From the NCBI RefSeq assembly GCF_001543325.1, contig NZ_CP013355.1, forward strand, positions 1,270,001-1,334,000: 64,000 bases of DNA, in the 5' to 3' direction. The DNA is from Lutibacter profundi (lineage in GTDB: Bacteria; Bacteroidota; Bacteroidia; Flavobacteriales; Flavobacteriaceae). Numbering within the stretch: the first letter of the stretch is position 1; each line of letters opens with the position of its first letter. A program made the position numbers and the translations under genes. Below the pieces are notes generated by a model. The model was not told the DNA's origin. It made no database searches and was given only the letters and a program-made list of their open reading frames with translations. Of the stretch, positions 25,011-43,381 are shown piece after piece.

Positions 25011-25749
25011 TACTATACAAGCAATAATTGTTGATGACGAAAAAAATGCCTTGGAAAGTTTAGCTTTAAAAGTGTCTAAATATTTCCCAAACATTAATAT
25101 AACCCATAAATTTCAAAACCCACAAAAAGCAGTTGAAGAAATAAACAAAAACCATCCACATATTTTATTTTTAGATATTGAAATGCCTGTTTTAAGTGGT
25201 TTTGACGTGTTGTCTAAAATTGAAAATCCTAATTTTGAAATTATTTTTGTAACCGCTTATAACGAATATGCTATTGACGCCATAAAACATTGTGCCATTG
25301 GTTATATTGTAAAACCTATAGATAATGATGAATTAAAAGCTGCTATTGAAAATGCTTTAAAGAATATTAATCAAAAAAGTGCTTTAGAAAAAAACAGACA
25401 ACTTTTAGAAAACTTAGTCTCAAATGGCAACTCAGTTATTGTAATTCCTACTCAAAAAGGGTTGAGCTTTATAAAAACCGATGCTATTATTCGTTTTGAA
25501 GGCATAGATGGTTATACTAAAATTATTTTAACAAATAAAACTACTATTTTAAGTTCGTATAGTATTGGAAAATTCACTAAAACAACTGCTTTACACAATT
25601 TTTACTTAGTGCATAAATCTCATTTTATTAATATAAGTTTTATTAAAGAATATTTAAATGAAGGTTATATTGTATTAACTAATAATGATAAAATTCCAGT
25701 TTCAAAAATAAGACGCATCGAGTTTTTAGAAAAAATTAGAAACAATTAA
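25003..25749 (+). CDS. LytTR-family response regulator
   Basis: A 248-residue regulator with receiver domain (acidic D11-D12, phospho-acceptor D58 in LFLDIEMP, conserved T in VTAYNEY and K in YIVKPI). A C-terminal LytTR DNA-binding domain follows (YLVHKSHFINISFIKEY). The ATG overlaps the end of the kinase gene, so the two are translationally coupled. LytTR regulators usually bind paired direct repeats; candidate target motifs lie directly downstream (see GGTAACAAAA sites), but the link is inferred from position only. Confidence 0.95.
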   Translation: MSNTIQAIIVDDEKNALESLALKVSKYFPNINITHKFQNPQKAVEEINKNHPHILFLDIEMPVLSGFDVLSKIENPNFEIIFVTAYNEYAIDAIKHCAIGYIVKPIDNDELKAAIENALKNINQKSALEKNRQLLENLVSNGNSVIVIPTQKGLSFIKTDAIIRFEGIDGYTKIILTNKTTILSSYSIGKFTKTTALHNFYLVHKSHFINISFIKEYLNEGYIVLTNNDKIPVSKIRRIEFLEKIRNN

Positions 25750-25832
25750 TTATCACTTAAGTCCTCTTTATATTACACTTTCAATATACGTTTAAGAAGT
25801 CCTAAACGCTTTTAGCAATTTAAAAATAAAAC

Positions 25833-25873
25833 CACAACATCAATTAACTAAAAGTTAATGGCGTTTTGTTGTG
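25833..25873 (+). terminator. Stem-loop after LytTR gene
   Basis: CACAACA (25833-25839) pairs with TGTTGTG (25867-25873) and, inside, ATTAACT pairs with AGTTAAT. It is a two-part hairpin 84 bp past the stop, without a strong T tract, so it is only a possible terminator. Confidence 0.45.
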
Positions 25874-25919
25874 TTAACTATATATTTAAGAACACCAAAA
25901 CTGCTATTGAGCTTTAAAA

Positions 25920-26107
25920 CAACACCATAAAATAATTTTAAAATAATTTCGTATAATTGTAATAACAATCTCTAATTAGAAATTAAAAAACTGCTAAATA
26001 GGGTAACAAAATTAAATGATGGTTGATATATACCTAAACAATCATAAACAAATTACTAACTAAAAAATCTACTAATGAAAAAAATTATAACTCTTCTGTT
26101 TTTGTGA
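25920..26107 (+). repeat. Duplicated leader region with truncated signal-peptide relic
   Basis: This segment resembles 36288-36475, the region before and into the HU-barrel gene. The match is strongest from GGTAACAAAATTAAATGAT (26002) through ACAAATTACTAACTAAAAAA to an ATG at 26075, where MKKIITLLFL is followed by TGA (compare MKKIIALLFF at 36444). It is a duplicated promoter and signal-peptide start whose coding part is lost. The rest of 25750-26312 holds the stem-loop above and the upstream region of the next gene. Confidence 0.8.
26002..26020 (+). promoter_or_regulatory. GGTAACAAAA motif, site 1
   Basis: GGTAACAAAATTAAATGAT, 73 bp before the truncated ATG at 26075. Near-identical to site 3 at 36372. 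It could be an operator or part of the transcribed leader. Confidence 0.4.
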
Positions 26108-26267
26108 CAAAAATTATATATAGATGGAAAATTATAGACTTTCATCTTCTTATACAATAACTAATTCTCATAATCTAATCAAACAGTTATTTTATCGAAT
26201 GACTATTTTATTTTAAACAATACAACTATATTTTTGAATTTACCTTTAGAACAATTTCAATATAATA

Positions 26268-26284
26268 GGTAACAAAATTGAAAT
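26268..26284 (+). promoter_or_regulatory. GGTAACAAAA motif, site 2
   Basis: GGTAACAAAATTGAAAT, 45 bp before the TTG start of the outer-membrane barrel gene at 26313. Confidence 0.4.
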
Positions 26285-26312
26285 AAAATTTATATAATTA
26301 AAAAAACGAACC

Positions 26313-28010
26313 TTGAATACTATTAAATATAATTTAGTAATAGTGCTACTTTTTATTAGTGCTATAATATTTGCCCAAGAAAAAGAAAGAGCGATAACTC
26401 TTAACGGAAATATTGGTCTTTTTTATGATACGTATAATTATTCCGAACAAAATTATCCAACTTTTAGACCAAGATATCTAGACAACGAATTAAGGTTAAA
26501 CATTAATGCTACCCTGCAAATTGGAGAATACCTGTCAATTCCTTTTGGAATAAGTATTAGCAATCAAAAAACATTGTATAATTTACCTGAACTACCCGAA
26601 GAAAATTTAATAGATTTTATCCAAAACCCCAGAAATAATATTAGTATTAATCCTGAATATAAATGGATAAAAGGTTATTTAGGAACACAAACACCTAGTT
26701 ATTCAGAGCTTACAACAGGAGATACTCCTATTTTTGGAATAGGAATAGAATTAAATCCAGAAAAGTTTATTTTTTCAGCAAACTATGGTTTATCACAACG
26801 AGCTATTGAATCTGATTTATTCCTAAATATAATTGGAGCATATAAACAGGAAATACTAGCAACAAGAATAGGTTATGGTAAAATTGAAGGCACAAAAATT
26901 ACATTAAATTTTGTAAAAGTAAAGGATGATATAAATTCAGTTATTAATACACCTCTATATGATACTCCTATTGAAGGACTTACAACCTCTTCATTAATTG
27001 AGCTTAAAATAAAAGAAAAATTATTATTTAAAACGGAAACCGCTGCGTCAATTTTCACAACCAACTTAAACAATTCTTTTTCAATAAACAACCCTACAAT
27101 TGAATCTCTTAATAATATTATTACAATAAATGCAAGCAGTAAAGGGGATATTTCTCATGTTTCTTCATTAGATTATATTTCTAAAAAAATTACAGTTGGT
27201 GGTGAAATAAGATATATCGGTTCTGGCTTTGTTCCTGTTGGCTACAGAAATATTGAAAAAGATGTTCTAGATTATAAAATAAAATCGAGCTTTAAATTAT
27301 TTAAAGATAAAACATCAATTAATGGAATGTTTGGTATTCGAAGAAATAATGTTAAAAACACCAATTTACAAAGTACAAAGCGAGTAATAAGTAATATTAA
27401 CGTGTTTTCACAAGTAAGTGAAACTTTTTCAATAAATGCAAATTATTCAAATTTTGGATTTAATAATAACGAAATAAATAATTTAATTAGAATTGAAATG
27501 ATTAATAACTCCTTTTCATTATCTCCCTCCTATAAATTTAAATCTGAAAAAATAAATCATCAAATTAATGTAAATGGAAGCCTTAATATTTTTGATCAAT
27601 TTGATGCTATTAGCAATTCATTTGTAGCTACTAAATCAAAAAATTTAAGTTTAAACTATAATTTAATGTTCCAAGAAATACCCTTAAATATTAATTTTAT
27701 TAGCTTATTTTTTAATAATGAAATGCCCTTAAGTACCATAAAAATGAGCAACTACGGAACAACTGTTAGTTATAAGTTTTTTGATAAAAAATTAAGTCCA
27801 TCACTTGGATTAAACCTATCAAATATTACGCGCGATAACTTTACAACAGACCATAGGTTTAGCATCCGTTTTAAAGCAAAATATAAAATAACAAAAAAAC
27901 TTCAATTTAATTTATCATATAGATTGAATAACTACAAATATGGTTCCTCAAGACCCAATGCTATTACAAATGAACAGAGAATGCAATTTGCATTTTTACA
28001 AAAATTTTAA
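26313..28010 (+). CDS. Outer-membrane beta-barrel protein
   Basis: 565 residues from a TTG start, since a complete signal peptide (NTIKYNLVIVLLFISAIIFAQ) follows at once and no ATG is available. The mature part shows many alternating aromatic/polar amphipathic strands separated by short turns, with long extracellular-like loops, and ends QMRFAFLQKF-style with a terminal phenylalanine, the usual barrel assembly signal. No TonB box or plug is seen. It is 11 bp upstream of the giant secreted protein and probably co-transcribed. It may be a porin-like partner that anchors or exports its neighbours; that part is inference. Confidence 0.8.
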   Translation: MNTIKYNLVIVLLFISAIIFAQEKERAITLNGNIGLFYDTYNYSEQNYPTFRPRYLDNELRLNINATLQIGEYLSIPFGISISNQKTLYNLPELPEENLIDFIQNPRNNISINPEYKWIKGYLGTQTPSYSELTTGDTPIFGIGIELNPEKFIFSANYGLSQRAIESDLFLNIIGAYKQEILATRIGYGKIEGTKITLNFVKVKDDINSVINTPLYDTPIEGLTTSSLIELKIKEKLLFKTETAASIFTTNLNNSFSINNPTIESLNNIITINASSKGDISHVSSLDYISKKITVGGEIRYIGSGFVPVGYRNIEKDVLDYKIKSSFKLFKDKTSINGMFGIRRNNVKNTNLQSTKRVISNINVFSQVSETFSINANYSNFGFNNNEINNLIRIEMINNSFSLSPSYKFKSEKINHQINVNGSLNIFDQFDAISNSFVATKSKNLSLNYNLMFQEIPLNINFISLFFNNEMPLSTIKMSNYGTTVSYKFFDKKLSPSLGLNLSNITRDNFTTDHRFSIRFKAKYKITKKLQFNLSYRLNNYKYGSSRPNAITNEQRMQFAFLQKF

Positions 28011-28021
28011 AATTGATACAC

Positions 28022-31000
28022 ATGAAAAAAATAAATATTTTATTCGCTATATTTCTAGGTATTTTCTTAAAAGTAAATGCCCAAGAAATTACAATTAATT
28101 TAGATGTAGATTCCAATCCAAATCCTGAAATTTCAGAATGGGTTGACAGAACTGAATTAGCACTACTAACAATTGTTAATACTAATGAAAAATATGTAGA
28201 TTTTGAATATAAAATTCAAACTAAAATATTTAAAGACGGTGAATTAGTTGTTGAAACTAAAACAAGTCAAATGCCAATTATGTATTTACCTTTTGGTTCT
28301 GAAACATTCTTAGCAGATGAAATTGTACCTTATAATGCCTTGAGATTTTATGGGAATATAGAAAAAACAGTAATTCAAACCGGGTTACTACCTGCTGGAA
28401 ATTATTCTTTTTGTGTTTCTATTATTGATTTAGAAGGAAAACCGTTAACAAGGCTAGAAAGTGTTTGTAAACCAATGTTAATTACAGATTATCAATTACC
28501 TGAATTAATTTCACCAATTGAAAACACCACAATTTTAGCACAAAACCTACCTTCAACCATATTTACTTGGTCTCCTATTGCTCCAACTCCTCCAGGCGAT
28601 GAGGGTATAAAATACATTATTGCAATTAGTGAAGTTAAAGGTAAACAAACTCCCGCACGAGCATTTGATGTAAACTACCCTATAGTTGAAGAAGAAATAA
28701 TAGCTGGCACACAATTTAACTGGCCAACAGATATTGATACACCTGATGAAGATACACAATATGTTTGGAGTATTAAACCCGTAACCTTTAATGATAATCC
28801 TTACAAATCTGGTGAAAATAATTTTATTAAAGTAGGTACTTTTAATGTAAAAATAAATAATCGCTCTAGTGAAAACGGAGAAGATGATAAAATCGTTTAT
28901 GGAGATTCTGAAAATACAACCAATAAAAACAATAAACAAAATGAGTCTTGTGAATGTTTCAATGGTGATGTAATTGATGCGTCCTTTTTACCACTAAATT
29001 TATTTAATAATCCTAGCGGAAAAACAGTAATTGAAGTTTCAGGTTTATTAACATTACAAAATATGATAAGATCTTGTATGTCTAATGTACCTGAAGCTAA
29101 AGGAAATCCTGCATACAGTTTTGGAAATTGGCAATTTAAAACTCGTATTGGTTTTGATGCCACACATACACCTGATCTTGATACTTTTACATCTAGTGGC
29201 GATGTAGGAAGTCACACTTTTAACACGCACGCTTTAATTATGGCTTGCGAAAAAACAGAGCAATTACAAATAGAAGTTACCGTAGTTAACAAACTACTAA
29301 ATTATAAATGCACCATGGTATTTTTCAAAGATATACCAGAAGAATTTCTGAATGAAATTTATAATGAAAAAGATAATTGCAATTGTGAAGAAAACACCAC
29401 TCCAGAACCACTAGTTTTTATAGCTCAATCAGACGCACAAACAAGCCCCTTAAAAATGCAACTTATAGATTATGAATCCTATAAAAACTATGTATTGGGT
29501 TGTGCAAATAACCCTGAAAATTTTACAATAAATGCAACAATTGATTGGGGTGACGGTACACCGCTAATATATTCAGCAAGTCCAAATACAGAACATACGT
29601 ATCTTTCTATTGATGATATGCCTGCTACCATTGAATTATTATTTGAATTAAAACCTTTGAGTGTAACAACTAAAAATCAAATAAGTGAAACAACCGAAAA
29701 TCAAACCTGTATTGTTAACTATGAAGTACCAATAACTGAAAATTTCAAAAATGGAATAGAAATATCTAGCGATTGTAATTGTACTAATTTAAGTTTAACC
29801 GAACCTGAATTAAATATTTTTCAAACTGAACCTGAAAATAATCCACGTAATTTAACATTAGGAGGAGTAACAGCTTATCGTGATTACTTGTTATCCTGTA
29901 ATGAAAATTACAGTCTAGAAACACACAGTATAACCGTAACTTTAAATTGGGATGAAGAACATAGTAACCAATCCATTGTTAATGAAGGCCCTTTTATACA
30001 CGAATATGCCATAGATCACGAAATACCTGAAGAAATTTGTGCAACTTTTACAATTGCCCCGCTGTTTCCTGAAGATGGAGATGATGAACCTAGCTGTATA
30101 ACTGTTAAATGTATTGCAGTCTCTCCAGAATTATTAGCACTTAATACGGGGCCTGTTGGAACAGGAGATTTAGCTTTAGGTGAAAGTATTTTTGCTGGAG
30201 AACATGTAAACGGACAAGGAGAATTTGAAATTATAACAACAACGCTAGAAGGTGATGCTCCAGGACCATATTCTGGAACAGGAACTGTATATATTGATTG
30301 GATAAAATCTGACATGACTGTTGAATTTACTGACATAACTATTGATGGCAATAATAATTTAGTTTCAGGGTTTATAACAGCTCAAGTTCATGACACCGCA
30401 CCTACCTATCCTTTTGCTTGGGCAGGAGGAATTGCATTAAATAATATTAATGTAGAAAGCATTATAAATTGGGTAGAAAACACTACAGGCCAAGAAATAG
30501 ATTATGACCCTGCAATAGGTTCAATAATGCCCGTAAAAGTTCCTTTAGGTTTAAATTTTCCTAGTGGAGATCAGTTAGCAATCACTGAAATGGTTTTTAG
30601 AGCTGATAAATCTGAATTTAATTTAATAGCAGCCAAAACAACACCTCCAGATTGGGGAGACACTCAATTAATTGGTTTTAAAGCTTTAAACATACAGTAT
30701 CACCCTAATTCACCTGAGTTTCCACCTGAAAGATTGGAACTTGTTGAAGATATAACTGTTGGGAATATCAATGAAAAAATAACATTCACATTTAGAGCTC
30801 CTTCTGCAAATAATCCAGGATGTTATATTGAATGGGATGAATTTGGGTTTTCAGCCTATGGCGTTGAATTAGATGCTAATTTTACACGTGAATGGTTAAT
30901 TCCATTACCTGATGATGGTACTTCAAAAGCAAAAGCAAATTTAGTTGCTACAGGAAGTGCTTGGGGAGATTTAATTTTTATTGGAAATCTAGAAGAATCT

Positions 31001-34000
31001 GTTATATCAAGTACAATCCCTGAGCCAGACTCAGGAGTCCCAACAGATTCAGGTTCTCATGATTTCATCATTTTAGCCAATAATATTTCTTATGATTGGT
31101 CTGATGTTGCAAATGCTCCAGCAATTGATTTCCCTCCAATTTACACTGGTGAAACAACTAACTTATTTAGAGGTTTCCATATGGAAGAGCTCACTTTAAA
31201 GTTCTCACCAAACAAAATGAATACTCCAAACGGAGATCCCATTGAAATAAGCATAAATGATATGATTATTGATGATACAGGAATTACACTAGAAGCTGAA
31301 ATTGAAAACTTGGTAGTTTTTGGAGATGCTGAAATTGGTGATATGGCCGCAAGTATAGATCGTGTTTATTTAGAAATTTTATCCAGTAGTTTTGTTGAAG
31401 CTGGTGTTGAAGGTAGAATAGCAATACCTGTAAGTGATGGAAATAGTTTAGATGACTCATTAGCTTATACCGCACTTTTTAATGTACCTCTTGATCCTGC
31501 AGCAAATAAAAACTTTCAAATTACTTTAACTCCAGATCAACCTATAAATGCAGATTTATTAAAAGGAACCTTCAATTTAGATGATACATCCAACCTCTCA
31601 GGTTATTTTGATAAAGACAAAAAAACATTCACTATGGAATTAAATGGTGATTTTACTTGGGAAGATGCAGAAATAGGCCCTGTAAAAGAAATTAATTTAG
31701 AAATTGGGTTTGAAGGTGTTGGCTTTGATTACGACTCTAGCCTTACTTCAAATAAATTAACTTTTGACTCTGGTGAATGGTCATTTGCAAGTCCACAAAA
31801 GCGAATGGCAAACTTTCCAGTTACCATTGATAATATAGATTACACAACAATGACTGCAACCGGAAACCAACTATTACACGGAAAACTTAATTTTGATGTG
31901 ATTTTTAATTTATCATCAAAAATTGGAGGAATGACCACCTTAGGTGCTGAATTTTCAATAAATGATGATTCTGGTAGTGGCGGAAAAAAGTTTGTTCCAA
32001 ATTTTATTGGAGGAGTCATAGATTCCATCGCAATTCAAGCTGATATGGCTGCCGTTAAAATAAAAGGAGCCATTGGATTTAGAAATGACGATCCTGTTTT
32101 TGGAGATGGATTTATAGGAACACTTAGTGCCGAATTTAAAGGCCCAGGAATAAAAGTTGATGCTTTAGCAGAATTTGGAAACACAACCTATTTAAGTATG
32201 AGTAGATACAGATACTGGAGAGTAGAAGCTGAAGCAACATTTCCTGCTCCAGGAATAACATTCTTACCTGGTATGGCATTCCGTGGTTTTGGAGGTGGCG
32301 CATTTAAAAATATGGAAGCAACCCTATCAGGAAATACCTATACGTTTACACCAAAAAAATCTTCCTTCGGTTTTAGAGCAAAAGCAGTAATGGCTACCAC
32401 ACCAAAAGAAGAAACATTCAACGCTGATGTTGGTTTATTAGGAACATTCTCTAATAGTGGAGGTATGACTTATATTGGTTTTACAGGTGATTTTTATGTT
32501 GGTGCTGGCTTTGCTAAACGAAACAATGCTAAAATTGATGGAACGCTTACTGTAGATTATGATTTCCCACAAAAACACTTTAATATGAGTGCTAGTGTAA
32601 ATGTAAATGCATCACCTATTACAACCCCTAGCCCAATGAGTTTAGTGCTAGATATTAATGGAAAAACGAATTTATGGTATTTTAAATTTGGAGAACCTGC
32701 CAATTTAAATACTGTAAACGTATTTGGTGTTAGTTTGTATGAATATTTAATGTTTGGAAATTCTATTCCTTACCCAGGCGGTTTTACAAATACATTTAAA
32801 ACAAATTATTACAATGCCGTTGGTGTTTATCCAAGTGCAGGAGGAGCAGCAACTGGAGGTGTAGGTAGTAATACAGCAGCTGGAAAAGGATTTGCTCTTG
32901 GAATAGGTTTTATGTTTGATAAAAGTGGTGAAAAACAATTGACAGATTACAATAATGGTAACAAAAAACATGTATTAAGTTTTGCATTAGCAGCTGGAGC
33001 AGAATTACACCTTTCGTATATGGAGTATTTAGGAAGTTGTGGAGGCTATACTCCTGTTGGCATTAATGGTTGGCGTGCAAAAGGTAGTTTAGGAATGTAT
33101 GGTATGGCTGCAGCAGGTGTAAAAAAATATAAAAGAAATGGATCCGTTAAATGGAATACAACCGTTGCAAGTTTAGCCGCTGGTGCTTGGATTACAGGTG
33201 AATTTCCTAATCCGTATTATGTAGCTGGTGCTATTGATGGTTCAATTACAGTTTTTGATTTAATTTCTTTTAACTTTCACAAAGATTTTGAAAAAGGAAC
33301 TTCTTGTGGAAATGGTAGTGCAGGAACTGGTGCTCCTGTAACGCAAGGTGATGCTGCTGCTGATCAAGAAAATGCTTTAATACAATATATCCATCCTGAG
33401 AATTCGTTTAATTTCCCTATTGATGAACCTCTTGCGGTGAAGTTTGGGTTAAATCCTGATGAAGTTTTTGATGTTTCAGAACAACAAGCAAATGGTACTG
33501 TTATCATGCGCACATTTAAAATGGTTGTAACTAAAAATTTACAGATTAAAGATGATGCAACAGGAGTTTGGTCTGGGGTAAGTTTAACAACAAACGAAAA
33601 TAATTTAGGCGAATATTTATACACTAAAACAGCTCCTATTACTGTTACGGCATCAGCTCAATTAAATTCATTTCCTCCAGGAGGAGGAGCTGGAAATTTG
33701 CCAGTTGCTACCACAGCAGCCTCAGGTGTTTATACTGCTCCTGCAAATTATACACCCGTAACTATACCTGCATCCAAAACAACAGTAAACTTATCTCAAT
33801 TAGTTATTTATCCTGCCCCAGAAATATCTAATGACTATGATGATTTACCTCCTGATCCAGCTCCAATTGTAAATTCACTTACTGCTGATAAAAACTATAA
33901 ATTTACCGTAACTGCTACTCTAAAAGAGTGGAATGGTTCAAACTGGGTAAATGCTCTTAAAAATAATGGAACTCCTGTAAGCCAAACAATTATTAAACAA

Positions 34001-34054
34001 TTTAGAACTGGAGACGCAAGTTTAACAGCAAACAATATTCTATATAATTACTAA
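28022..34054 (+). CDS. Very large secreted multi-domain protein (TANFOR-like N-terminal region)
   Basis: 2010 residues from ATG 28022 (MKKINILFAIFLGIF; an upstream ATG at 28013 is less likely) with a signal peptide ending VNAQ. Residues about 22-290 resemble the N-terminal region of TANFOR-type Bacteroidota proteins (YLPFGSETFLADEIVPYN, LPAGNYSFCVSIID, TIFTWSP). Three Cys-rich modules start at about residues 308, 451 and 584 (CECFNG, CNCEEN, CNCTNL). The middle 1200 residues are beta-rich repeats with phrases such as GDLIFIGNLEES and FRGFGGGAFKNMEA. A Gly/Ala-rich segment and a C-terminal Ig-like region follow. No secretion-sorting CTD is evident. Confidence 0.8.
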   Translation: MKKINILFAIFLGIFLKVNAQEITINLDVDSNPNPEISEWVDRTELALLTIVNTNEKYVDFEYKIQTKIFKDGELVVETKTSQMPIMYLPFGSETFLADEIVPYNALRFYGNIEKTVIQTGLLPAGNYSFCVSIIDLEGKPLTRLESVCKPMLITDYQLPELISPIENTTILAQNLPSTIFTWSPIAPTPPGDEGIKYIIAISEVKGKQTPARAFDVNYPIVEEEIIAGTQFNWPTDIDTPDEDTQYVWSIKPVTFNDNPYKSGENNFIKVGTFNVKINNRSSENGEDDKIVYGDSENTTNKNNKQNESCECFNGDVIDASFLPLNLFNNPSGKTVIEVSGLLTLQNMIRSCMSNVPEAKGNPAYSFGNWQFKTRIGFDATHTPDLDTFTSSGDVGSHTFNTHALIMACEKTEQLQIEVTVVNKLLNYKCTMVFFKDIPEEFLNEIYNEKDNCNCEENTTPEPLVFIAQSDAQTSPLKMQLIDYESYKNYVLGCANNPENFTINATIDWGDGTPLIYSASPNTEHTYLSIDDMPATIELLFELKPLSVTTKNQISETTENQTCIVNYEVPITENFKNGIEISSDCNCTNLSLTEPELNIFQTEPENNPRNLTLGGVTAYRDYLLSCNENYSLETHSITVTLNWDEEHSNQSIVNEGPFIHEYAIDHEIPEEICATFTIAPLFPEDGDDEPSCITVKCIAVSPELLALNTGPVGTGDLALGESIFAGEHVNGQGEFEIITTTLEGDAPGPYSGTGTVYIDWIKSDMTVEFTDITIDGNNNLVSGFITAQVHDTAPTYPFAWAGGIALNNINVESIINWVENTTGQEIDYDPAIGSIMPVKVPLGLNFPSGDQLAITEMVFRADKSEFNLIAAKTTPPDWGDTQLIGFKALNIQYHPNSPEFPPERLELVEDITVGNINEKITFTFRAPSANNPGCYIEWDEFGFSAYGVELDANFTREWLIPLPDDGTSKAKANLVATGSAWGDLIFIGNLEESVISSTIPEPDSGVPTDSGSHDFIILANNISYDWSDVANAPAIDFPPIYTGETTNLFRGFHMEELTLKFSPNKMNTPNGDPIEISINDMIIDDTGITLEAEIENLVVFGDAEIGDMAASIDRVYLEILSSSFVEAGVEGRIAIPVSDGNSLDDSLAYTALFNVPLDPAANKNFQITLTPDQPINADLLKGTFNLDDTSNLSGYFDKDKKTFTMELNGDFTWEDAEIGPVKEINLEIGFEGVGFDYDSSLTSNKLTFDSGEWSFASPQKRMANFPVTIDNIDYTTMTATGNQLLHGKLNFDVIFNLSSKIGGMTTLGAEFSINDDSGSGGKKFVPNFIGGVIDSIAIQADMAAVKIKGAIGFRNDDPVFGDGFIGTLSAEFKGPGIKVDALAEFGNTTYLSMSRYRYWRVEAEATFPAPGITFLPGMAFRGFGGGAFKNMEATLSGNTYTFTPKKSSFGFRAKAVMATTPKEETFNADVGLLGTFSNSGGMTYIGFTGDFYVGAGFAKRNNAKIDGTLTVDYDFPQKHFNMSASVNVNASPITTPSPMSLVLDINGKTNLWYFKFGEPANLNTVNVFGVSLYEYLMFGNSIPYPGGFTNTFKTNYYNAVGVYPSAGGAATGGVGSNTAAGKGFALGIGFMFDKSGEKQLTDYNNGNKKHVLSFALAAGAELHLSYMEYLGSCGGYTPVGINGWRAKGSLGMYGMAAAGVKKYKRNGSVKWNTTVASLAAGAWITGEFPNPYYVAGAIDGSITVFDLISFNFHKDFEKGTSCGNGSAGTGAPVTQGDAAADQENALIQYIHPENSFNFPIDEPLAVKFGLNPDEVFDVSEQQANGTVIMRTFKMVVTKNLQIKDDATGVWSGVSLTTNENNLGEYLYTKTAPITVTASAQLNSFPPGGGAGNLPVATTAASGVYTAPANYTPVTIPASKTTVNLSQLVIYPAPEISNDYDDLPPDPAPIVNSLTADKNYKFTVTATLKEWNGSNWVNALKNNGTPVSQTIIKQFRTGDASLTANNILYNY

Positions 34055-34065
34055 AAATAATACCT

Positions 34066-36138
34066 ATGAAACTTCTTAATCAAATATTAATAATAGGCAT
34101 TTTTATAAATATTTCTTTTGTAAAAGCCCAAGAAAAACCAATAAGCAAAATTAAAGTTGCCGCACGTTATACAACACAAGGAGTAGAATTGCGTTTTTTC
34201 CCTGATAGAAAAAATATTTTAGACTTAGGTCTTCAATCTGGGTTTATTTTAGAAAGAGCCGAAGGGAATTCAAAAAAATTCACTGAAATTACAAGAACAA
34301 AGCCTTTTTCTGAAGAAGAATGGGCAATTGCAATGCAACAAGCAAAAACAGAAGAAGAAAAAATACAAATTGAAATATCACAAGATTTTTATATCTCTAG
34401 TAAAGAAAAAAAGGGAGGAAACCTTGATTTTACTAAAGGTATTGCAAATTTAAAACAACAAAAAGCAGATGAAGATTTTCAATTTATGGTATCTATTTTA
34501 ACTGCTATAAAAAATGCAGATGCTGCTAAAGGTTTAGGTCTTGCTTACGTAGATACAAATGTTCTATTGGGAAAGAAATATACCTATAAAGTGAAACTTG
34601 TCGGAAATTCATCCATCTATAAAATTGAATCTGTTCCTGTAACGCTTCAAACAACAAACAATAAATCTGCTTATAAAAATAAGGTATATATAAAAACTGG
34701 AGATACTAAATTAGGTTTTATTTGGGAAGACCATCCTTATTTATCAGGTGTTGACATTGAACGTAAAATAAACGGCAAGTTCAAAAAACTAAATGATGCC
34801 CCAATTTACACTGTTAGAGGAAAAAACTATAAAGGAGTTAAACGTAATGGTTTTAGTGAAGATAGTTTGGTGAATTATCAAAAATATACTTACCTATTTT
34901 ATGCTCAAACCATTTTTGGTGAACGTGTTAAATTTGCAGAAGTAACCGGTATGCCCCGTGATTTAACACCTCCGCAAAAACCATTTTTAAAACAACCAAA
35001 ACACATAAAACCAAACGAAGTTCTTATTGAATGGGAAATGAAAGCTCCTATTGCTAAAGATTTTAAAGGTTTTGCCATTTCAAGGTCTAATAAAAATGAT
35101 GGATATTTTTCATTAATTAATGATAAATTACTACCTAGTACCGCTAGAAAATTTATTGATAAAAGCTTTATCAAAGGAAAAAGTAATTATTACTTAATTC
35201 AAGCTTTAGATACAGCCAATAATGTAAGTTCTTCATTTCCAATTTCGGTAACACTTATAGATTCTATCCCTCCAGTAAAGCCAATTTTTATAGATGGAAA
35301 AATTGATTCCACTGGTGTTGTTACCATTAACATACAAAAAAATAAAGAACCTGATTTAATGGGTTACAGACTCTACAGATCAAATAGTCCTAAACATGAG
35401 TTTTCTCCAATACAAGAAGGCTTTTTATCATTAGACAGTCTTAAAAATAACGTACAAACCGTTTTTAGTGATACGATTACACTTAAATCATTAACTCCTT
35501 ATATTTATTATAGAGCCGAAGCCTTAGATTTTAACCATAATACCTCTAAGTTTTCGGATATTTTAAAAGTAAAAAGACCAGATATAATTCCACCTACAAC
35601 GCCTGTATTTAAAAAAGTAAAAGTAGGTGAAGATTTTGTTGAACTCGGATTTTCTTTAAGTAAAAGTCGTGATGTGAAACAGCAACTTCTTTATCGTAAA
35701 TTAAACCTTAAAGATAAATGGGAACTACTTACAACTTTAAAAAATAATCAAAAAACGTATATTGATAAAAATGTAGAAAAAGGAACTAAATATTATTACA
35801 CATTGCAAGCTATTGATGACAGTGATAACAAATCTGAGTTCGCAATTCTAGTTATGGGAAAACCTTATGATACTGGTGTTCGCCCTCCAGTTGAAGATTT
35901 AAGAATACAACAAAATAAAAACGACATAATTATTACTTGGAAATATCAACTCAAAAACAAACAAACACTATTTTTAATTTATAAACAAAATAAAAATGGT
36001 GATTTGGTTCAATACAAAAACACAAGCGAGTTGTTTTTTAAAGAAAAATCAGCTAATAAACCTGCTGTTTATGCCGTAAAAGTTATTACAAAAGATGGTG
36101 GTAAATCTAAAATTAGCAAACTAATTAGCATTCAATAA
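34066..36138 (+). CDS. Secreted fibronectin type III-repeat protein
   Basis: A 690-residue protein with signal peptide (IFINISFVKAQ). After an N-terminal region with a charged helical stretch (EEWAIAMQQAKTEEEKIQIE) it carries at least three FN3-like domains. Each is recognisable by PP-x-x-P linkers (TPPQKPFLKQP, IPPVKPIFIDG, IPPTTPVFKKV), FAISRSN/YRLYRSN-type strands and Y-x-x-QA-x-D-x-x-N closing motifs (YYLIQALDTANN, YYTLQAIDDSDN). It begins 11 bp after the giant protein gene. Such FN3 proteins directly follow TANFOR-type genes in Bacteroidota, to my knowledge. Likely an envelope adhesion or scaffold factor. Confidence 0.85.
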   Translation: MKLLNQILIIGIFINISFVKAQEKPISKIKVAARYTTQGVELRFFPDRKNILDLGLQSGFILERAEGNSKKFTEITRTKPFSEEEWAIAMQQAKTEEEKIQIEISQDFYISSKEKKGGNLDFTKGIANLKQQKADEDFQFMVSILTAIKNADAAKGLGLAYVDTNVLLGKKYTYKVKLVGNSSIYKIESVPVTLQTTNNKSAYKNKVYIKTGDTKLGFIWEDHPYLSGVDIERKINGKFKKLNDAPIYTVRGKNYKGVKRNGFSEDSLVNYQKYTYLFYAQTIFGERVKFAEVTGMPRDLTPPQKPFLKQPKHIKPNEVLIEWEMKAPIAKDFKGFAISRSNKNDGYFSLINDKLLPSTARKFIDKSFIKGKSNYYLIQALDTANNVSSSFPISVTLIDSIPPVKPIFIDGKIDSTGVVTINIQKNKEPDLMGYRLYRSNSPKHEFSPIQEGFLSLDSLKNNVQTVFSDTITLKSLTPYIYYRAEALDFNHNTSKFSDILKVKRPDIIPPTTPVFKKVKVGEDFVELGFSLSKSRDVKQQLLYRKLNLKDKWELLTTLKNNQKTYIDKNVEKGTKYYYTLQAIDDSDNKSEFAILVMGKPYDTGVRPPVEDLRIQQNKNDIIITWKYQLKNKQTLFLIYKQNKNGDLVQYKNTSELFFKEKSANKPAVYAVKVITKDGGKSKISKLISIQ

Positions 36139-36208: not shown

Positions 36209-36249
36209 ATCAACATCAAACTCTTGTTAAAAAAGAGTTTGATGTTGAT
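36209..36249 (+). terminator. Perfect 17-bp hairpin ending the upstream operon
   Basis: ATCAACATCAAACTCTT (36209-36225) and AAGAGTTTGATGTTGAT (36233-36249) are perfectly complementary with a 7-base loop. No T tract follows. It probably ends transcription from 26313-36138 and separates it from the HU-barrel gene. Confidence 0.7.
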
Positions 36250-36443: not shown

Positions 36444-39400
36444 ATGAAAAAAATTATAGCTCTTCTGTTTTTCGGAATTAGTTTAATTACCTATTCACAA
36501 AAGGATAACAGTAAACTGAACACTAATTCCTCAACTCCATTTTTCGTTGGCTTAGCTTCAGGTATTTCAACTCCTTCAGCAAGTTTTAGCGATGATAGTT
36601 TTGCTGCAAACGGTAGCTTTATTCATATCTCTGGAGCATATTATTTTTCAAATTTTGGAATAGGTGTTTCTTTTGGGCAAATATCAAATCCAACCAGTAG
36701 CAATTTTAACAATTCAACAAATTCACTTGACATCCCAATAATAAATACTTCTGAAAACTGGAAGCAAATCTATTATGGAATTGGGCCAGAATATAAAACA
36801 AACTTTGGAAGTTTTAGTGCTACATTTTCCTCCAAAATAGGTTTACAATCGGTTAATTCTGTTGAGCTTCAAAGTAGTTCAAACGTTAATAATATAGATA
36901 TTTTTACTCCTGTAATAATAATGAAATCAGATAAAAACTCAAGTTTATCTTACTTTTCAACAGGTATAAAATTAGGTTATAACCTAAGCCAAAATTTTAA
37001 TCTTTCTGTAACAGCCAATTATATGTCTGCACTTTCTAATGGAATTACCCTTTCAAGAAGCAAAATTACAGACACCAATAGAAATGGCATTATTGATGCT
37101 GAAGATTTAAAATTTGCTACTGGGTCAGCAACTATAGATTATGAAACATCAACACAAAACATAAAACCACAAACTACTAATTTTGGAATTGGATTGAGTT
37201 ATTCTTTTGGTTCCAAAAAAGGATACGATTATTATGAAGCAAAGGATGATGAAAATAACAGTACTAAAGCCATAAACCATGATGCTAGTAGAAATAACAA
37301 CACAAACTCTATTGTGGCTCCTGAATCTAAAGGTGACGGAAATGATGACAAAAATAACGGTACTAGAGCCATAAACCATGATGCTAGTAGAAGTAATAAC
37401 ACAAACTCTATTACTGCTCCTGAATCTAAAGGTGATGGAAATGATGACAAAAATAATGGTACTAGAGCCATAAACCATGATGCTAGTAGAAATAACAACA
37501 CAAACTCTATTGTGGCTCCTGAATCTAAAGGTGACGGAAATGGTAATAGCACAACTAAAAGAGGGAAAAGAAAAGCAAAAAAAGAATGCTTAGAAAATGG
37601 AGGCTCTTTTTGGGAAAGCAGTGATGGATCTTACCATTGTATGATGAAATTATCTACATCTAAACAAGAAGGAAATACAACCAATGAACTATTTAGAAGC
37701 AAAAAAAGAAAATGCTTTAAAGCTGGCGGACAATGGGTTACAAATCCTCACGGTTCGTTTTGTTGGAATCCTTCTCAACAAACTGCTAAAGTTGAAGTAA
37801 ATACTGGAGATAACACTAACTCCTTGTTAAGAGGTATTAAAAAAGAAAAAAATAAACTAGACGAAGATAGTGATGGTGATGGATTATCAGTTGGTTTAGA
37901 AATATCAGATAATGCAGATAACGATTGTGACGATAGGGATAGTTCTTCTTTAAAAAGAATGAATAAAGCAGAATTAATTGATGCGATGGCTAAAGATGCT
38001 AATTTATCTAAAGCGGATGCCAAAAGAGCACTTGAAGCTTTAACAGCTAACTTATCAAAGTCCTTAAAAAAGGGTAACTCGGTACAATTAATTGGTTTTG
38101 GGAATTCTATCTCAGCAAGAGCTGCTAGAACTGGTAGAAATCCTCAAACTGGAGCAACAATTAAAATTGCTGATTATAAAAATCCTAAAAGGATAAATAA
38201 TTCTCAAGATACTCAAGTTAATAGTGGTAAAACCCAAATGAATAAAGGCGAATTAGTGGATGCTATTGCAAAAGATGCTAATTTATCTAAAGCCGATGCA
38301 AAGAAAGCTTTAAATGCTTTCGAGTCTATAGTATCTAAAAAATTAAATACTGGAAAATGTATAAAATTAATTGTACCCGTTGCAATAAATAAAAGAATTA
38401 AAGAAGGGGGTAAAACAATTGGTGCTAGTCAAGGAAACAATCTGAACGAAGATGAAGAATTAAACCTAAAACGAAAGCGCCCAGGAAGAACGAAATATTC
38501 AAATATTACCTTAAAAAGAAATCAAGTTAAGGATGGTGAAAGCAACGGTACTAGAGCCATAAACCATGATGCAAGTAGAAGTAATAACACAAATTCTATT
38601 ACTGCTCCTGAATCTAAAGGTGATGGAAATGATAACAAAAATAACGGTACTAGAGCCATAAACCATGATGCAAGTAGAAGTAATAACACAAACTCTATTA
38701 CTGCTCCTGAATCTAAAGGTGATGGAAATGATGACAAAAATAATGGTACTAGAGCCATAAACCATGATGCTAGTAGAAATAACAACACAAACTCTATTGT
38801 GGCTCCTGAATCTAAAGGTGACGGAAATGGTAATAGCACAACTAAAAGAGGTAAAAGAAAAGCAAAAAAAGAATGCTTAGAAAATGGAGGCTCTTTTTGG
38901 GAAAGCAGTGATGGATCATACCATTGTATGATGAAATTATCTACATCTAAACAAGAAGGAAATACAACCAATGAACTATTTAGAAGCAAAAAAAGAAAAT
39001 GCTTTAAGGCTGGTGGAAAATGGGTTACAAATTCTCACGGTTCGTTTTGTTGGAATCCTTCTCAACAAACTGCTAAAGTTGAAGTAAATACTGGAGATAA
39101 CATTAATTTGCCATTAAGACGTTATGCAACAGAACGCAAAAAAAAGTTTAAAACTAAAGTACCAAGAAAAAATCAACATTCAAATAATAATCTTTCTGGT
39201 TACACTACAGAATCAACCATGATATTTGTTAAAGTAGATGAAACTTCTTTAAGGCAGTCTAATACTAAAATTCATAAAGACAATTCTGTTCAAGATAATG
39301 ACAAAAGAATGTCAAAAAGAACTTTACGAGCTAGAAATGGATACAGAGAAAGAGTACAAGCACGAACACTTAGAACTGCTGATAAAAGATATCGTGATGA

Positions 39401-39953
39401 AAGAGTGAAAGCACGAACACTTAGAACTAGTGACAAGAGATACAGAGCTAAACGTGATGAAAGAGTAAAAGCACGAACACTTAGAACTAGAGACAAAAGA
39501 TATAGTAATAAACGTGATGAAAGAGTACAAGCACGAACACTAAGAACTGCTGATAAAAGATATAGAGAGAGAATTAGAGATAATAACGTACGAGATAAAA
39601 AAAATACAATTCAGAATAAAAAACCTATAAAAATTACAACAAAAGAAAATAACAAGGTAATTCCTTCAAATGATTTAGATACTCGATATTTAAAGGTTCA
39701 AAATTATCAAACTATTCAAATTTCAAAAAGTAAATTTCAATTAACTGCACCACTTTTAATTAGCAAAAATCAAACTGACCTTATAAGTTATAATTGGACT
39801 GTTAAAAATAAAACCCAAAATAAAGTAGCTAAATTTACCGGGGAAACCATTCATTATAATTTTGATGTTAGTGGTACTTATGAAATTGAAATAACCCCTG
39901 TGGTTAACCATAAAAATTTGAATTCATACCATATCAGTATTATTTGCAATTAA
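36444..39953 (+). CDS. Outer-membrane barrel fused to two HU-like DNA-binding domains and Arg-rich repeats
   Basis: 1169 residues. A signal peptide (ALLFFGISLITYS) leads into an outer-membrane barrel at about residues 20-258, ending in the strand FGIGLSYSF. Then come three 33-residue repeats (about 270-370), two two-cysteine modules (CLENGG...HC and CFKAGG...FC), and a calcium-type acidic loop (DSDGDGL...DNDCDDRD). HU domain 1 spans residues 506-585 with the DNA-arm motif RTGRNPQTGATIKIA intact; a degenerate HU copy lies at 599-672. A second copy of the 33-residue repeats and Cys modules follows, then four Arg-rich ERV-x-ARTLRT-x-DKRY units (969-1042) and a PKD-like C-terminal domain. Reading continues with no frameshift. 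The architecture is not one I recognise. Confidence 0.85.
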   Translation: MKKIIALLFFGISLITYSQKDNSKLNTNSSTPFFVGLASGISTPSASFSDDSFAANGSFIHISGAYYFSNFGIGVSFGQISNPTSSNFNNSTNSLDIPIINTSENWKQIYYGIGPEYKTNFGSFSATFSSKIGLQSVNSVELQSSSNVNNIDIFTPVIIMKSDKNSSLSYFSTGIKLGYNLSQNFNLSVTANYMSALSNGITLSRSKITDTNRNGIIDAEDLKFATGSATIDYETSTQNIKPQTTNFGIGLSYSFGSKKGYDYYEAKDDENNSTKAINHDASRNNNTNSIVAPESKGDGNDDKNNGTRAINHDASRSNNTNSITAPESKGDGNDDKNNGTRAINHDASRNNNTNSIVAPESKGDGNGNSTTKRGKRKAKKECLENGGSFWESSDGSYHCMMKLSTSKQEGNTTNELFRSKKRKCFKAGGQWVTNPHGSFCWNPSQQTAKVEVNTGDNTNSLLRGIKKEKNKLDEDSDGDGLSVGLEISDNADNDCDDRDSSSLKRMNKAELIDAMAKDANLSKADAKRALEALTANLSKSLKKGNSVQLIGFGNSISARAARTGRNPQTGATIKIADYKNPKRINNSQDTQVNSGKTQMNKGELVDAIAKDANLSKADAKKALNAFESIVSKKLNTGKCIKLIVPVAINKRIKEGGKTIGASQGNNLNEDEELNLKRKRPGRTKYSNITLKRNQVKDGESNGTRAINHDASRSNNTNSITAPESKGDGNDNKNNGTRAINHDASRSNNTNSITAPESKGDGNDDKNNGTRAINHDASRNNNTNSIVAPESKGDGNGNSTTKRGKRKAKKECLENGGSFWESSDGSYHCMMKLSTSKQEGNTTNELFRSKKRKCFKAGGKWVTNSHGSFCWNPSQQTAKVEVNTGDNINLPLRRYATERKKKFKTKVPRKNQHSNNNLSGYTTESTMIFVKVDETSLRQSNTKIHKDNSVQDNDKRMSKRTLRARNGYRERVQARTLRTADKRYRDERVKARTLRTSDKRYRAKRDERVKARTLRTRDKRYSNKRDERVQARTLRTADKRYRERIRDNNVRDKKNTIQNKKPIKITTKENNKVIPSNDLDTRYLKVQNYQTIQISKSKFQLTAPLLISKNQTDLISYNWTVKNKTQNKVAKFTGETIHYNFDVSGTYEIEITPVVNHKNLNSYHISIICN
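37262..37820 (+). repeat. 559-bp internal direct repeat, copy 1 (with 99-bp tandem units)
   Basis: Contains three 99-bp tandem units (starting 37262, 37361 and 37460; TACTAGAGCC-like starts) and both Cys modules. It is repeated almost exactly 1287 bp downstream at 38549, with the HU domains between the copies. The repeat is in frame (429 codons apart). Confidence 0.92.
38549..39107 (+). repeat. 559-bp internal direct repeat, copy 2
   Basis: Near-identical to 37262-37820, with tandem units at 38549, 38648 and 38747. A few base differences are visible, for example CAAGTAGAA for CTAGTAGAA. High identity within one gene suggests recent duplication or gene conversion. Confidence 0.92.
39348..39569 (+). 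repeat. Arg-rich coding tandem repeats (four units)
   Basis: Units begin GAAAGAGT at 39348, 39399, 39459 and 39519, giving periods of 51, 60 and 60 bp. Each encodes ERV-x-ARTLRT-x-DKRY, with AKRD or NKRD spacers in the longer ones. Confidence 0.88.
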
Positions 39954-42224: not shown

Positions 42225-42677
42225 TTGAATTTCGAAATTACTTTCAATACAAAATGGTCAGATTTTGACCCAAACAGGCATATGCGTCACACGGCTTACA
42301 ATGATTATGCTGCTGAAGTTAGAGTGCGTTTTTTTCAAGCGCATGGCCTTTCAATAACAGAGTTTGCAAAATTAAATATTGGCCCTATTTTATTTAAAGA
42401 AGAAACCTCTTTTTTTAAAGAAATTCACATCGGCGAAAATATTACTGTTAAAATGGAATTAGAAGGTGTTTCTAATGGTATTGAACGTTGGCGTTTTAAC
42501 CATCAAATATTCAACGAAAAAGGAGAACTCTCTGCGGAAATAAAGGTGTATGGAGCTTGGATAGATTTAGTAAAACGCAAACTAACTGCTCCTCCTCAAA
42601 AATTTGTTACAATTTTTGAGAACTTACCTAAGACAAGCAATTTTAAAAAAATTGAATTAAGAAAAAAGAACCTTTAA
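42225..42677 (+). CDS. Acyl-CoA thioesterase (hotdog fold, 4HBT family)
   Basis: 150 residues from a TTG start, because the conserved WSDFDPNRHMRHTAYNDYA segment begins only about 10 residues in and no ATG lies in range. This is the 4HBT signature with the catalytic aspartate in F-D-x-x-x-H. It probably hydrolyses acyl-CoA thioesters in the cytosol. The end overlaps the convergent MORN gene by 4 bp. Confidence 0.88.
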   Translation: MNFEITFNTKWSDFDPNRHMRHTAYNDYAAEVRVRFFQAHGLSITEFAKLNIGPILFKEETSFFKEIHIGENITVKMELEGVSNGIERWRFNHQIFNEKGELSAEIKVYGAWIDLVKRKLTAPPQKFVTIFENLPKTSNFKKIELRKKNL

Positions 42678-43381
42678 TTATTTAAAATAAGTTCCCACTC
42701 TCCTGGTGTATTAATTATAAATGCGAAAATAACATCAAATGTCATTGTTTTTAACTTATTTGAAGTAGTGTAATTTAATTTACACTCAAATGGGTACGTA
42801 ATATTTTCATAGCCAACATAATTAGGTGTTTCTATTCTATTGCCATTCGTACTGTCTAATCTAATATTTGAAATACTTGTATTATAACTCCCATTTTGCA
42901 TAAACTTAATTTTTACTTTATTCGTTACAAAACTATCACTTTCCTGTACCTTTCTAAAAGTATAACGATCTACACCTCTATTCCATTTCACACTATAATC
43001 TGGTATTTTAGCCTTACCAATATATCTGTCATTTTTCCAAATACCAATTCTAATTGAATCACTACCATTTACCTTAAATACTAATTTTCCCTTTCCATTC
43101 ATTAATCCATTTTTAAATTGTCCTTCATAATAATTTCCAGAAGCAAATGTTAATACACCCTTACCATTGGGAAGTCCTTTTTTAAAAGAGCCCTTGTATG
43201 TATTAATTCCTTTAGCAACACCTTTACCATGAGCTAAACCTTTTTTACATTTACCTAAATATTGTTCTTGAATTCCCTTTTTTAAGACTTTACAATCTGA
43301 TTTTTTTTGAGCAAATAATATAAAAATACCACCAAAAAAGATAAAAATTAATAATGCAATTTTATTTTTCATACTTTTCAT
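42674..43381 (-). CDS. Secreted MORN-repeat protein
   Basis: A 235-residue protein with a signal sequence (ALLIFIFFGGIFILFAQ; start at 43381 or the nearby ATG at 43372). At least three MORN-type repeats follow (GKGVAKGINTYKGSF, GKGVLTFASGNYYEGQF, GKGKLVFK), a motif often found in membrane-associated proteins. The C-terminal half is not recognised. Confidence 0.85.
   Translation of the reverse strand: MKSMKNKIALLIFIFFGGIFILFAQKKSDCKVLKKGIQEQYLGKCKKGLAHGKGVAKGINTYKGSFKKGLPNGKGVLTFASGNYYEGQFKNGLMNGKGKLVFKVNGSDSIRIGIWKNDRYIGKAKIPDYSVKWNRGVDRYTFRKVQESDSFVTNKVKIKFMQNGSYNTSISNIRLDSTNGNRIETPNYVGYENITYPFECKLNYTTSNKLKTMTFDVIFAFIINTPGEWELILNN

Follow-up and report, generated by a model that had tools for sequence, protein, structure and literature searches.

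Outer-membrane barrels of the OmpA type carry a tail in the periplasm, and this plan is among the closest parallels to a gene of Lutibacter profundi (Bacteroidota; Flavobacteriaceae) at positions 36444-39953 of the 64,000-nucleotide stretch analysed here (RefSeq assembly GCF_001543325.1, contig NZ_CP013355.1, positions 1,270,001 to 1,334,000, forward strand; hereafter the window). The likeness lies in the barrel, probably of 8 strands, with a tail behind it; the difference is that the tail of the window protein is a collage of pieces, and no OmpA-type domain is among the protein's Pfam matches. The first HU domain of the tail (HU1) resembles HU/DNABII proteins (PF00216) in aligning over profile positions 1-78 of 90 and in retaining the DNA-binding arm motif RTGRNPQTG, but differs from them in being exported, fused and devoid of the last (C-terminal) helix. 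It also passes the cut-off of PF18291 (HU-HIG and related; 38.1 vs 26.2 bits), but scores far lower there than with PF00216 over the same residues, and the wHTH, Ig or Gly-rich partner of that family's title is not seen beside it. Among the open PMC papers listed in our searches, none was found to describe an architecture of barrel, HU and Arg-rich array. Here we find that the Arg-rich/PKD-like part of the protein and the next gene, of the peptidyl-arginine deiminase (PAD) family, are best read as a conserved unit, and that the HU cassette looks from its sequence like a swappable insert, not the heart of the protein.

The arginine-rich array and the adjacent deiminase-family gene

The gene is a single open frame on the plus strand that starts with ATG and encodes 1169 aa without internal stops, and in which a signal peptide and a probable beta-barrel are followed by a middle that bears HU and Cys-pair blocks, then by four Arg-rich units and an end that weakly resembles PKD/Ig domains (Table 1). 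This agrees overall with the order proposed in a first-pass annotation made from the sequence alone, including HU1 and the Cys-pair blocks, except that its second HU domain is a hybrid (see below) and its PKD-like end finds weak profile matches in relatives (0.055 in P0002, 0.013 in P0057). The four Arg-rich units are there as described, as 4 copies of 60 nt that peak at 19 Arg in 60 residues, as against <=7 in the other 37 mechanical window ORFs of >=150 aa; the mean over all 38, barrel gene included, is 2.6% Arg. Partner genes elsewhere reach 11 (G002), 14 (G034, a cut gene) and 20 (P0052 of G575) Arg per 60 residues, and aa 905-1169 are 73% identical to the G002 protein over 207 codons.

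The PAD gene begins at an ATG 14 nt after the barrel-gene stop (the mechanical ORF begins at TTG 39944). Within the genus, for which protein parts were counted by hand from the match table in 37 genomes and PAD in 38, PAD at E <= 1e-20 occurs in 4/38 genomes, and the same 4 carry a strong Arg/PKD gene, adjacent each time; four other genus genomes lack PAD and have weak PKD-like matches only (E 2.6e-5 to 9.1e-4), which lie in different and longer frames. An even draw of 397 genomes across the family gave the Arg/PKD gene (E <= 1e-6) in two, and only in these was the PAD a close one (E 0 and 5.3e-162, the next best match being 1.1e-38), adjoining the Arg/PKD gene, with 36 more genomes holding distant PADs only. 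In G575, of another genus, PAD lies 12 nt downstream of the Arg/PKD gene. Overall, the two are adjacent in 5/5 genomes with either, over two genera, across which PAD retains 52% identity and its partner 28%. Both are constrained in the strain pair G002/G023, for which ratios of nonsynonymous to synonymous substitution (dN/dS; Nei-Gojobori, one pair, small segments, no confidence limits) are 0.16 for Arg+PKD (199 codons), 0.20 for PAD (471) and 0.25 for the whole protein (635).

The best PDB match of the PAD is the Porphyromonas gingivalis enzyme PPAD (7.4e-16), over the catalytic and Ig-like parts; its N-terminal stretch gave no PDB match. At 471 aa it is short, since distant class and family relatives lie mostly in frames of ~560-650 aa. 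It shares with PPAD the Ig-like part and the main active-site residues: Asp, His-x-Asp, Asn and Cys, as named in PMC4487231, are kept in 5/5 short PADs. It departs from PPAD, by the same report, in the C-terminal-arginine clamp and in C239.

Table 1. Features of the barrel gene and of the PAD gene downstream, with positions in the window.
Feature	Residues	Position (nt)	Strand	Basis or content
Signal peptide	1-19	36444..36500	+	By inspection; MKK start and YSQ end nearly invariant across alignment A1
Probable outer-membrane beta-barrel	20-258	36501..37217	+	PF13505 in relatives; 8 strands by eye, alignment A1
EF-hand/dockerin-like loop DTNRNGIIDAED between last barrel strands		37071-37106	+	Position within barrel
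586-bp direct repeat, copy A	~264-459	37234..37819	+	Three 33-aa units plus Cys-pair block
Inserted cassette, 701 nt		37820..38520	+	Stretch resembling TSP3 (by inspection), HU1, half HU with EF-Tu-like tail, tail-tube-like piece
HU domain 1 (HU1)	506-582	37959..38189	+	PF00216, PDB HU
HU N-terminal half	599-642	38238..38369	+	PF00216 profile 1-44, own-genome scan E 2.8e-8
EF-Tu C-terminal-like tail	~640-663	38361..38432	+	tblastn vs own EF-Tu, weak, E 0.041
Tail-tube (gp19)-like piece	675-692	38466..38519	+	PF06841 0.067 in window
586-bp direct repeat, copy B		38521..39106	+	95.7% identical to copy A, no gaps
Arg-rich array	961-1062	39324..39629	+	28 of 102 residues are Arg; net charge +26
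PKD/Ig-like end	1063-1169, plus stop	39630..39953	+	Weak PKD profiles in relatives
Short PAD-family gene, 471 aa		39968..41383	+	PF04371 1.1e-29; exported by inspection

The HU cassette between direct repeats

The canonical-looking HU domain noted in the first pass is confirmed apart from its missing last helix: HU1 matches PF00216 far beyond chance (E 1.6e-26, 92.8 bits vs a cut-off of 22.4) and solved HU structures in the PDB at E 2.8e-18, while remaining below the HU-alpha and HU-beta equivalog cut-offs (93.5 vs 162 and 91.2 vs 157 bits). A segment at 599-672 had been taken for a degenerate second HU. What stands there is an HU N-terminal half, not a degenerate whole domain; it is joined to an EF-Tu-like tail and followed by a tail-tube-like piece. 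Relative P0002, with the same HU-half/EF-Tu hybrid, matches the NCBIfam EF-Tu model at 1.3e-9 in three stretches and Pfam GTP_EFTU_D3 at 1.3e-7; the window protein holds short pieces only, not a complete three-domain EF-Tu. The tail-tube-like segment spans about aa 672-695 and is recognized above the gathering score in relative P0049 (PF06841, 7.7e-7), and the P0003 version has as its best, weak PDB match the tail protein 7adz (E 0.74). Here too the window protein holds a short tube-like piece only, not a complete tube, sheath or spike protein of a contractile injection system (CIS); an own-genome PF06841 scan returned nothing, its controls being likewise silent. Searched against PHROGs, the window protein gave HU at 1.6e-26 plus one match at 0.6, and no match to the phage family phrog_5121, which is annotated as of unknown function and is matched at the start of the Cys-pair block by P0003 (3.9e-6, residues 407-428) and P0005 (0.0046).

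The borders of this cassette coincide exactly with two 586-bp direct repeats, which is why it looks inserted. The copies agree in 183/195 residues, and dS between the two Cys blocks is 0.067, indicating a recent internal duplication. The repeat period of 1287 nt equals 429 codons, so the frame survives gain or loss of one unit, and the cassette may be exchanged by recombination between the repeats. In P0003 and P0005 too, copies of the Cys-pair block stand on either side of the HU arm words (104/112 and 100/118 residues identical). We rejected the idea that the repeat/Cys block is a common Bacteroidota element, as it was found in 1/295 class genomes (our own only); across the phylum it matched 10/395 genomes at E <= 0.05, the nine besides our own at 5.5e-4 to 0.03 and six of these nine with stops inside. 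Phage and plasmid records gave little: among the matches listed for P0003 in them (2 phage, 61 plasmid), all lie over the HU arm, and a composite query matched 4 plasmid records, the best three being Cereibacter 'phage tail protein' entries with 70% identity over 20 aa (E about 2).

The distribution of the HU part differs from that of its flanks. Strong barrel matches (E <= 1e-50) occur in 13/37 genus genomes, with weak partial ones in two more, and no full HU was found in 12 of these 13; the G034 gene is cut at a contig start, its visible part showing HU C-terminal words only. HU is fused into the barrel/Arg-array family in 3/37 genomes (our own, G002 and G023), and barrel and HU stand together in one, our own; G002 and G023 have no barrel, though their signal peptide, HU cassettes, Arg array and PKD-like end are retained. 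P0052, from G575, lacks HU; its parts are the barrel, a Cys block, the Arg array and the PKD-like end. Four relatives (P0003, P0005, P0050, P0051) hold the HU arm alone, and the HU of P0010 is nearly full (profile 1-89 of 90). Of the parts measured in the strain pair above, the full HU copies show the least constraint (dN/dS 0.77 over 81 codons and 0.49 over 76), as against 0.09-0.20 in the parts beside them; this counts against DNA binding being the function that is shared. A reading of HU as the functional point of the protein is not supported, since HU, which P0052 does without, looks like an insert between repeats and its full copies are weakly constrained.

Proposed function of the exported protein

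We tentatively favour a reading in which the protein is a polycationic scaffold in the periplasm, anchored in the membrane; the PAD encoded next to it would act on the scaffold's arginines, and the cassette would be exchangeable and not required. On an OmpA-like plan, the barrel would anchor the protein in the outer membrane and the collage tail would lie in the periplasm, where we place it because the by-eye strand count (8) is even; to that extent the earlier suggestion of a periplasmic tail, made on condition that the last strand exits there, can be kept. PF13505 matches 6/12 barrel family members (best 1.7e-6) and the window member itself has no Pfam barrel match; several members match EF-hand or dockerin profiles, and the barrel profile gave only EF-hand/dockerin-type matches in the PDB (best E 0.37). 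The working part would be the Arg-rich array with the PKD/Ig-like end, made together with the exported deiminase-family enzyme. As a polycationic scaffold the array may bind envelope or incoming polyanions such as lipopolysaccharide, polysaccharide or DNA, and PAD may convert its arginine to citrulline, lowering its charge. The region between barrel and array, with its in-frame direct repeats around HU, EF-Tu and tail-tube pieces, would be an exchange site where cassettes are swapped by homologous recombination, adding a basic or protein-binding surface that is dispensable. If the pairing is as we suggest, the array and the PAD are candidates for a substrate and its arginine deiminase in a bacterium other than P. 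gingivalis.

Several observations weigh against this proposal. Anchoring is not essential, since G002 and G023 have no barrel, and as these two are close relatives the independent pairings number fewer than five. Adjacency was read in genomes, and P0002 and the other database proteins were compared as proteins alone. Among the strains compared, none was seen with the cassette cleanly removed, and not all of the collage is idle, as the HU-half/EF-Tu hybrids have dN/dS of 0.14 and 0.09 in G002/G023 (61 codons each). At class level, 0/29 PAD loci had such an array beside PAD within flanks of <= about 1.5 kb, these loci being drawn from the 92/395 genomes with matches and their PADs being distant and mostly of the longer form; frames of one GC-rich locus reached 12 Arg per 60 residues. 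PMC4487231 also reports that R152 and R154 of PPAD hold the substrate carboxylate and that mutants of the channel cysteine C239 are about 8% active or dead. By-eye matching to the residues named there puts no Arg at the R152/R154 positions in 5/5 short PADs (Phe in all at R152; Glu, Lys, Lys, Glu and Asp at R154) and Tyr at C239 in all five, which makes peptidyl-arginine activity uncertain and a small-molecule substrate possible.

This last point speaks for an alternative in which PAD is only a passenger of the locus and has a small molecule, agmatine or free arginine, as its substrate, and agmatine deiminase models do match the PAD, though far below their cut-off (6.1e-10, 38.6 vs 381.8 bits). 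We regard it as unlikely, given the unbroken adjacency over two genera, with PAD better conserved than its partner, and the alignment of the PAD's Ig-like part to that of PPAD. It is less likely still that periplasmic HU domains bind DNA entering or leaving the cell, with the array adding charge. HU1 with its intact arm and high score, the nearly full HU of P0010 and the extracellular HU/IHF proteins, described in PMC6011942, that hold biofilm DNA would all suit such a role, so that DNA binding by HU is possible but, on sequence grounds, not favoured: full HU is missing from most barrel-bearing genomes of the genus and from the Arg/PKD/PAD relative of another genus, several relatives keep the arm alone, HU1 has no last helix, and full copies are weakly constrained. 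An HU match in an exported protein need not imply a DNA-binding role.

A third alternative, which we think rather improbable without dismissing it, holds that the middle serves as a spacer, changing fast and picking up pieces through illegitimate recombination, and that only its length, disorder and charge matter. The differing orders and contents among relatives, the recent internal duplication and the weakly constrained full HU copies all fit such a spacer. The constraint on the hybrids speaks against a purely idle collage, as do the recurrence of part of the words in other phyla and the finding that 16/16 HU/EF-Tu matches (E <= 1; 4/12 genes tested) lie in the sense frame, with the caveat that fragments in other frames would fade beyond recognition sooner. 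Finally, the whole might be an artefact of assembly or gene calling, as 586-bp repeats can collapse or expand during assembly. We consider this highly improbable: the frame is stop-free, the genome forms a single contig (2.97 Mb), and the barrel-then-HU order recurs on other contigs in P0002, P0008 and P0009. The fusion of HU behind an export signal and a barrel, the starting point of the first-pass annotation, is genuine and present in more than one assembly. Homologue lists are lower bounds, as scoring covered the ~8000 candidates that had most words in common with the query.

Shared pieces in other proteins, and the gene's surroundings

Pieces of the collage recur in relatives, in other orders and contents, and part of the vocabulary is found beyond Lutibacter. 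Fifteen Lutibacter-type proteins (P0001-P0015) have 142 distinct 6-mers in common with 29 others (P0017-P0045; P0016 left out), as against 23.3 on average and at most 31 when the second set was shuffled (20 shuffles); the second set is not a random sample, since it came from a search that started with P0017, which the first search had matched. Much of this sharing is HU/EF-Tu homology, enough alone to share words, but KKGYDYYKA, SRSN words, KRPGRT and VRGWDP are also among those shared. Matches to own EF-Tu at E <= 1e-3 occur in 8/45 proteins, with none in 20 shuffles of each, and CspA-like words (GTVKFFN) occur in 3/56. The names CspA, gpD, eCIS (extracellular CIS) core and Hcp are presumptive for such words, except where a profile match is given; ribosomal L17 was not accepted for the KKLADELVN words (Pfam 0.14 in P0003).

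Most of P0017-P0045, and P0055, are RHS-type proteins. They have HU pieces in common with the Lutibacter-type proteins, and one or another of them also has SRSN, KKGYDYY, KRPGRT, KKLADELVN and EF-Tu words, but their carrier is an RHS repeat protein, not a barrel; they were compared as proteins alone. The named ones are from Phycisphaerae, part of Planctomycetota (P0019 and P0044, Phycisphaerales; P0020 and P0030), and Kiritimatiellae (P0055): HU pieces are found in P0020, P0030 and P0055, SRSN in P0019 and P0020, and KKLADELVN in P0055, while P0044 carries GHVTVLK only, in an exact form absent from the Lutibacter-type set. Distant carriers have KKGYDYY (P0038-P0040, P0043) and KRPGRT (P0037, P0039). 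All eight full HU segments of the Lutibacter-type collages are closer to the HU of P0031, an RHS protein, than to own-genome hup or any of four further hup genes, of which one is from the genus and three are from the order; for the window HU, the values are 0.71 for P0031 vs 0.61 for own hup and at best 0.65 for the others. As the segments include post-arm non-HU residues and the sequences compared are few (six distant segments, five hup genes), this shows only that recent copying from own hup is unlikely. We rejected such copying (71% DNA identity over 212 nt, besides the closer RHS-protein HU).

Rickettsia palindromic elements are in-frame peptide inserts, and the collage is like them in placing in-frame foreign words inside genes; it differs in that its words include pieces of conserved proteins and are not one repeat family. 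It is conceivable, though we advance it with reserve, that an undescribed class of exported 'word-collage' proteins spans at least Bacteroidota, Planctomycetota (Phycisphaerae) and Kiritimatiellae, with partly common in-frame pieces in unrelated carriers (barrels, RHS shells, FG-GAP proteins) and with the flanking repeats as the Lutibacter exchange site. The pieces would be HU, EF-Tu and CspA, contractile-injection tube, spike and eCIS core, and the orphan words KKGYDYYKA, SRSN, GHVTVLK and KKLADELVN, brought in by a putative process of capture or exchange. If so, bacteria of several phyla build exported proteins with exchangeable parts that are recognisable fragments of core proteins, which is relevant to the origin of new bacterial genes.

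Some of these proteins merit separate mention. P0021 (3293 aa), apparently exported, has 41 'DSFFD' units together with HU and EF-Tu pieces, with matches to EF-Tu domains 1 and 3 (3.6e-19, 1.7e-22) and a VgrG-type OB domain (2.8e-11). Many of the RHS-type proteins hold HU pieces at the C-terminal end, the place at which polymorphic toxins carry a variable domain, and in P0038-P0040 EF-Tu words lie inside the RHS repeats. P0016 (874 aa) combines Lon protease with HU in a single frame, which may reflect a frameshift that joined neighbour genes.

Upstream of the barrel gene in the window, a two-component pair (Reg_prop/Y_Y_Y histidine kinase, LytTR regulator) is followed by frames of 565, 2013 and 690 aa with export-type starts (22065-36138), and in G007 (L045) one small gene separates a similar kinase/regulator pair from the barrel gene. 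After the 690-aa gene comes an inverted repeat with an A/T-rich loop (36211-36247), probably a terminator, so that the barrel gene is likely transcribed from a start of its own. At 42674-43381, on the minus strand, the window encodes a 235-aa protein that has, by inspection, MORN-like repeats and an export-type start.

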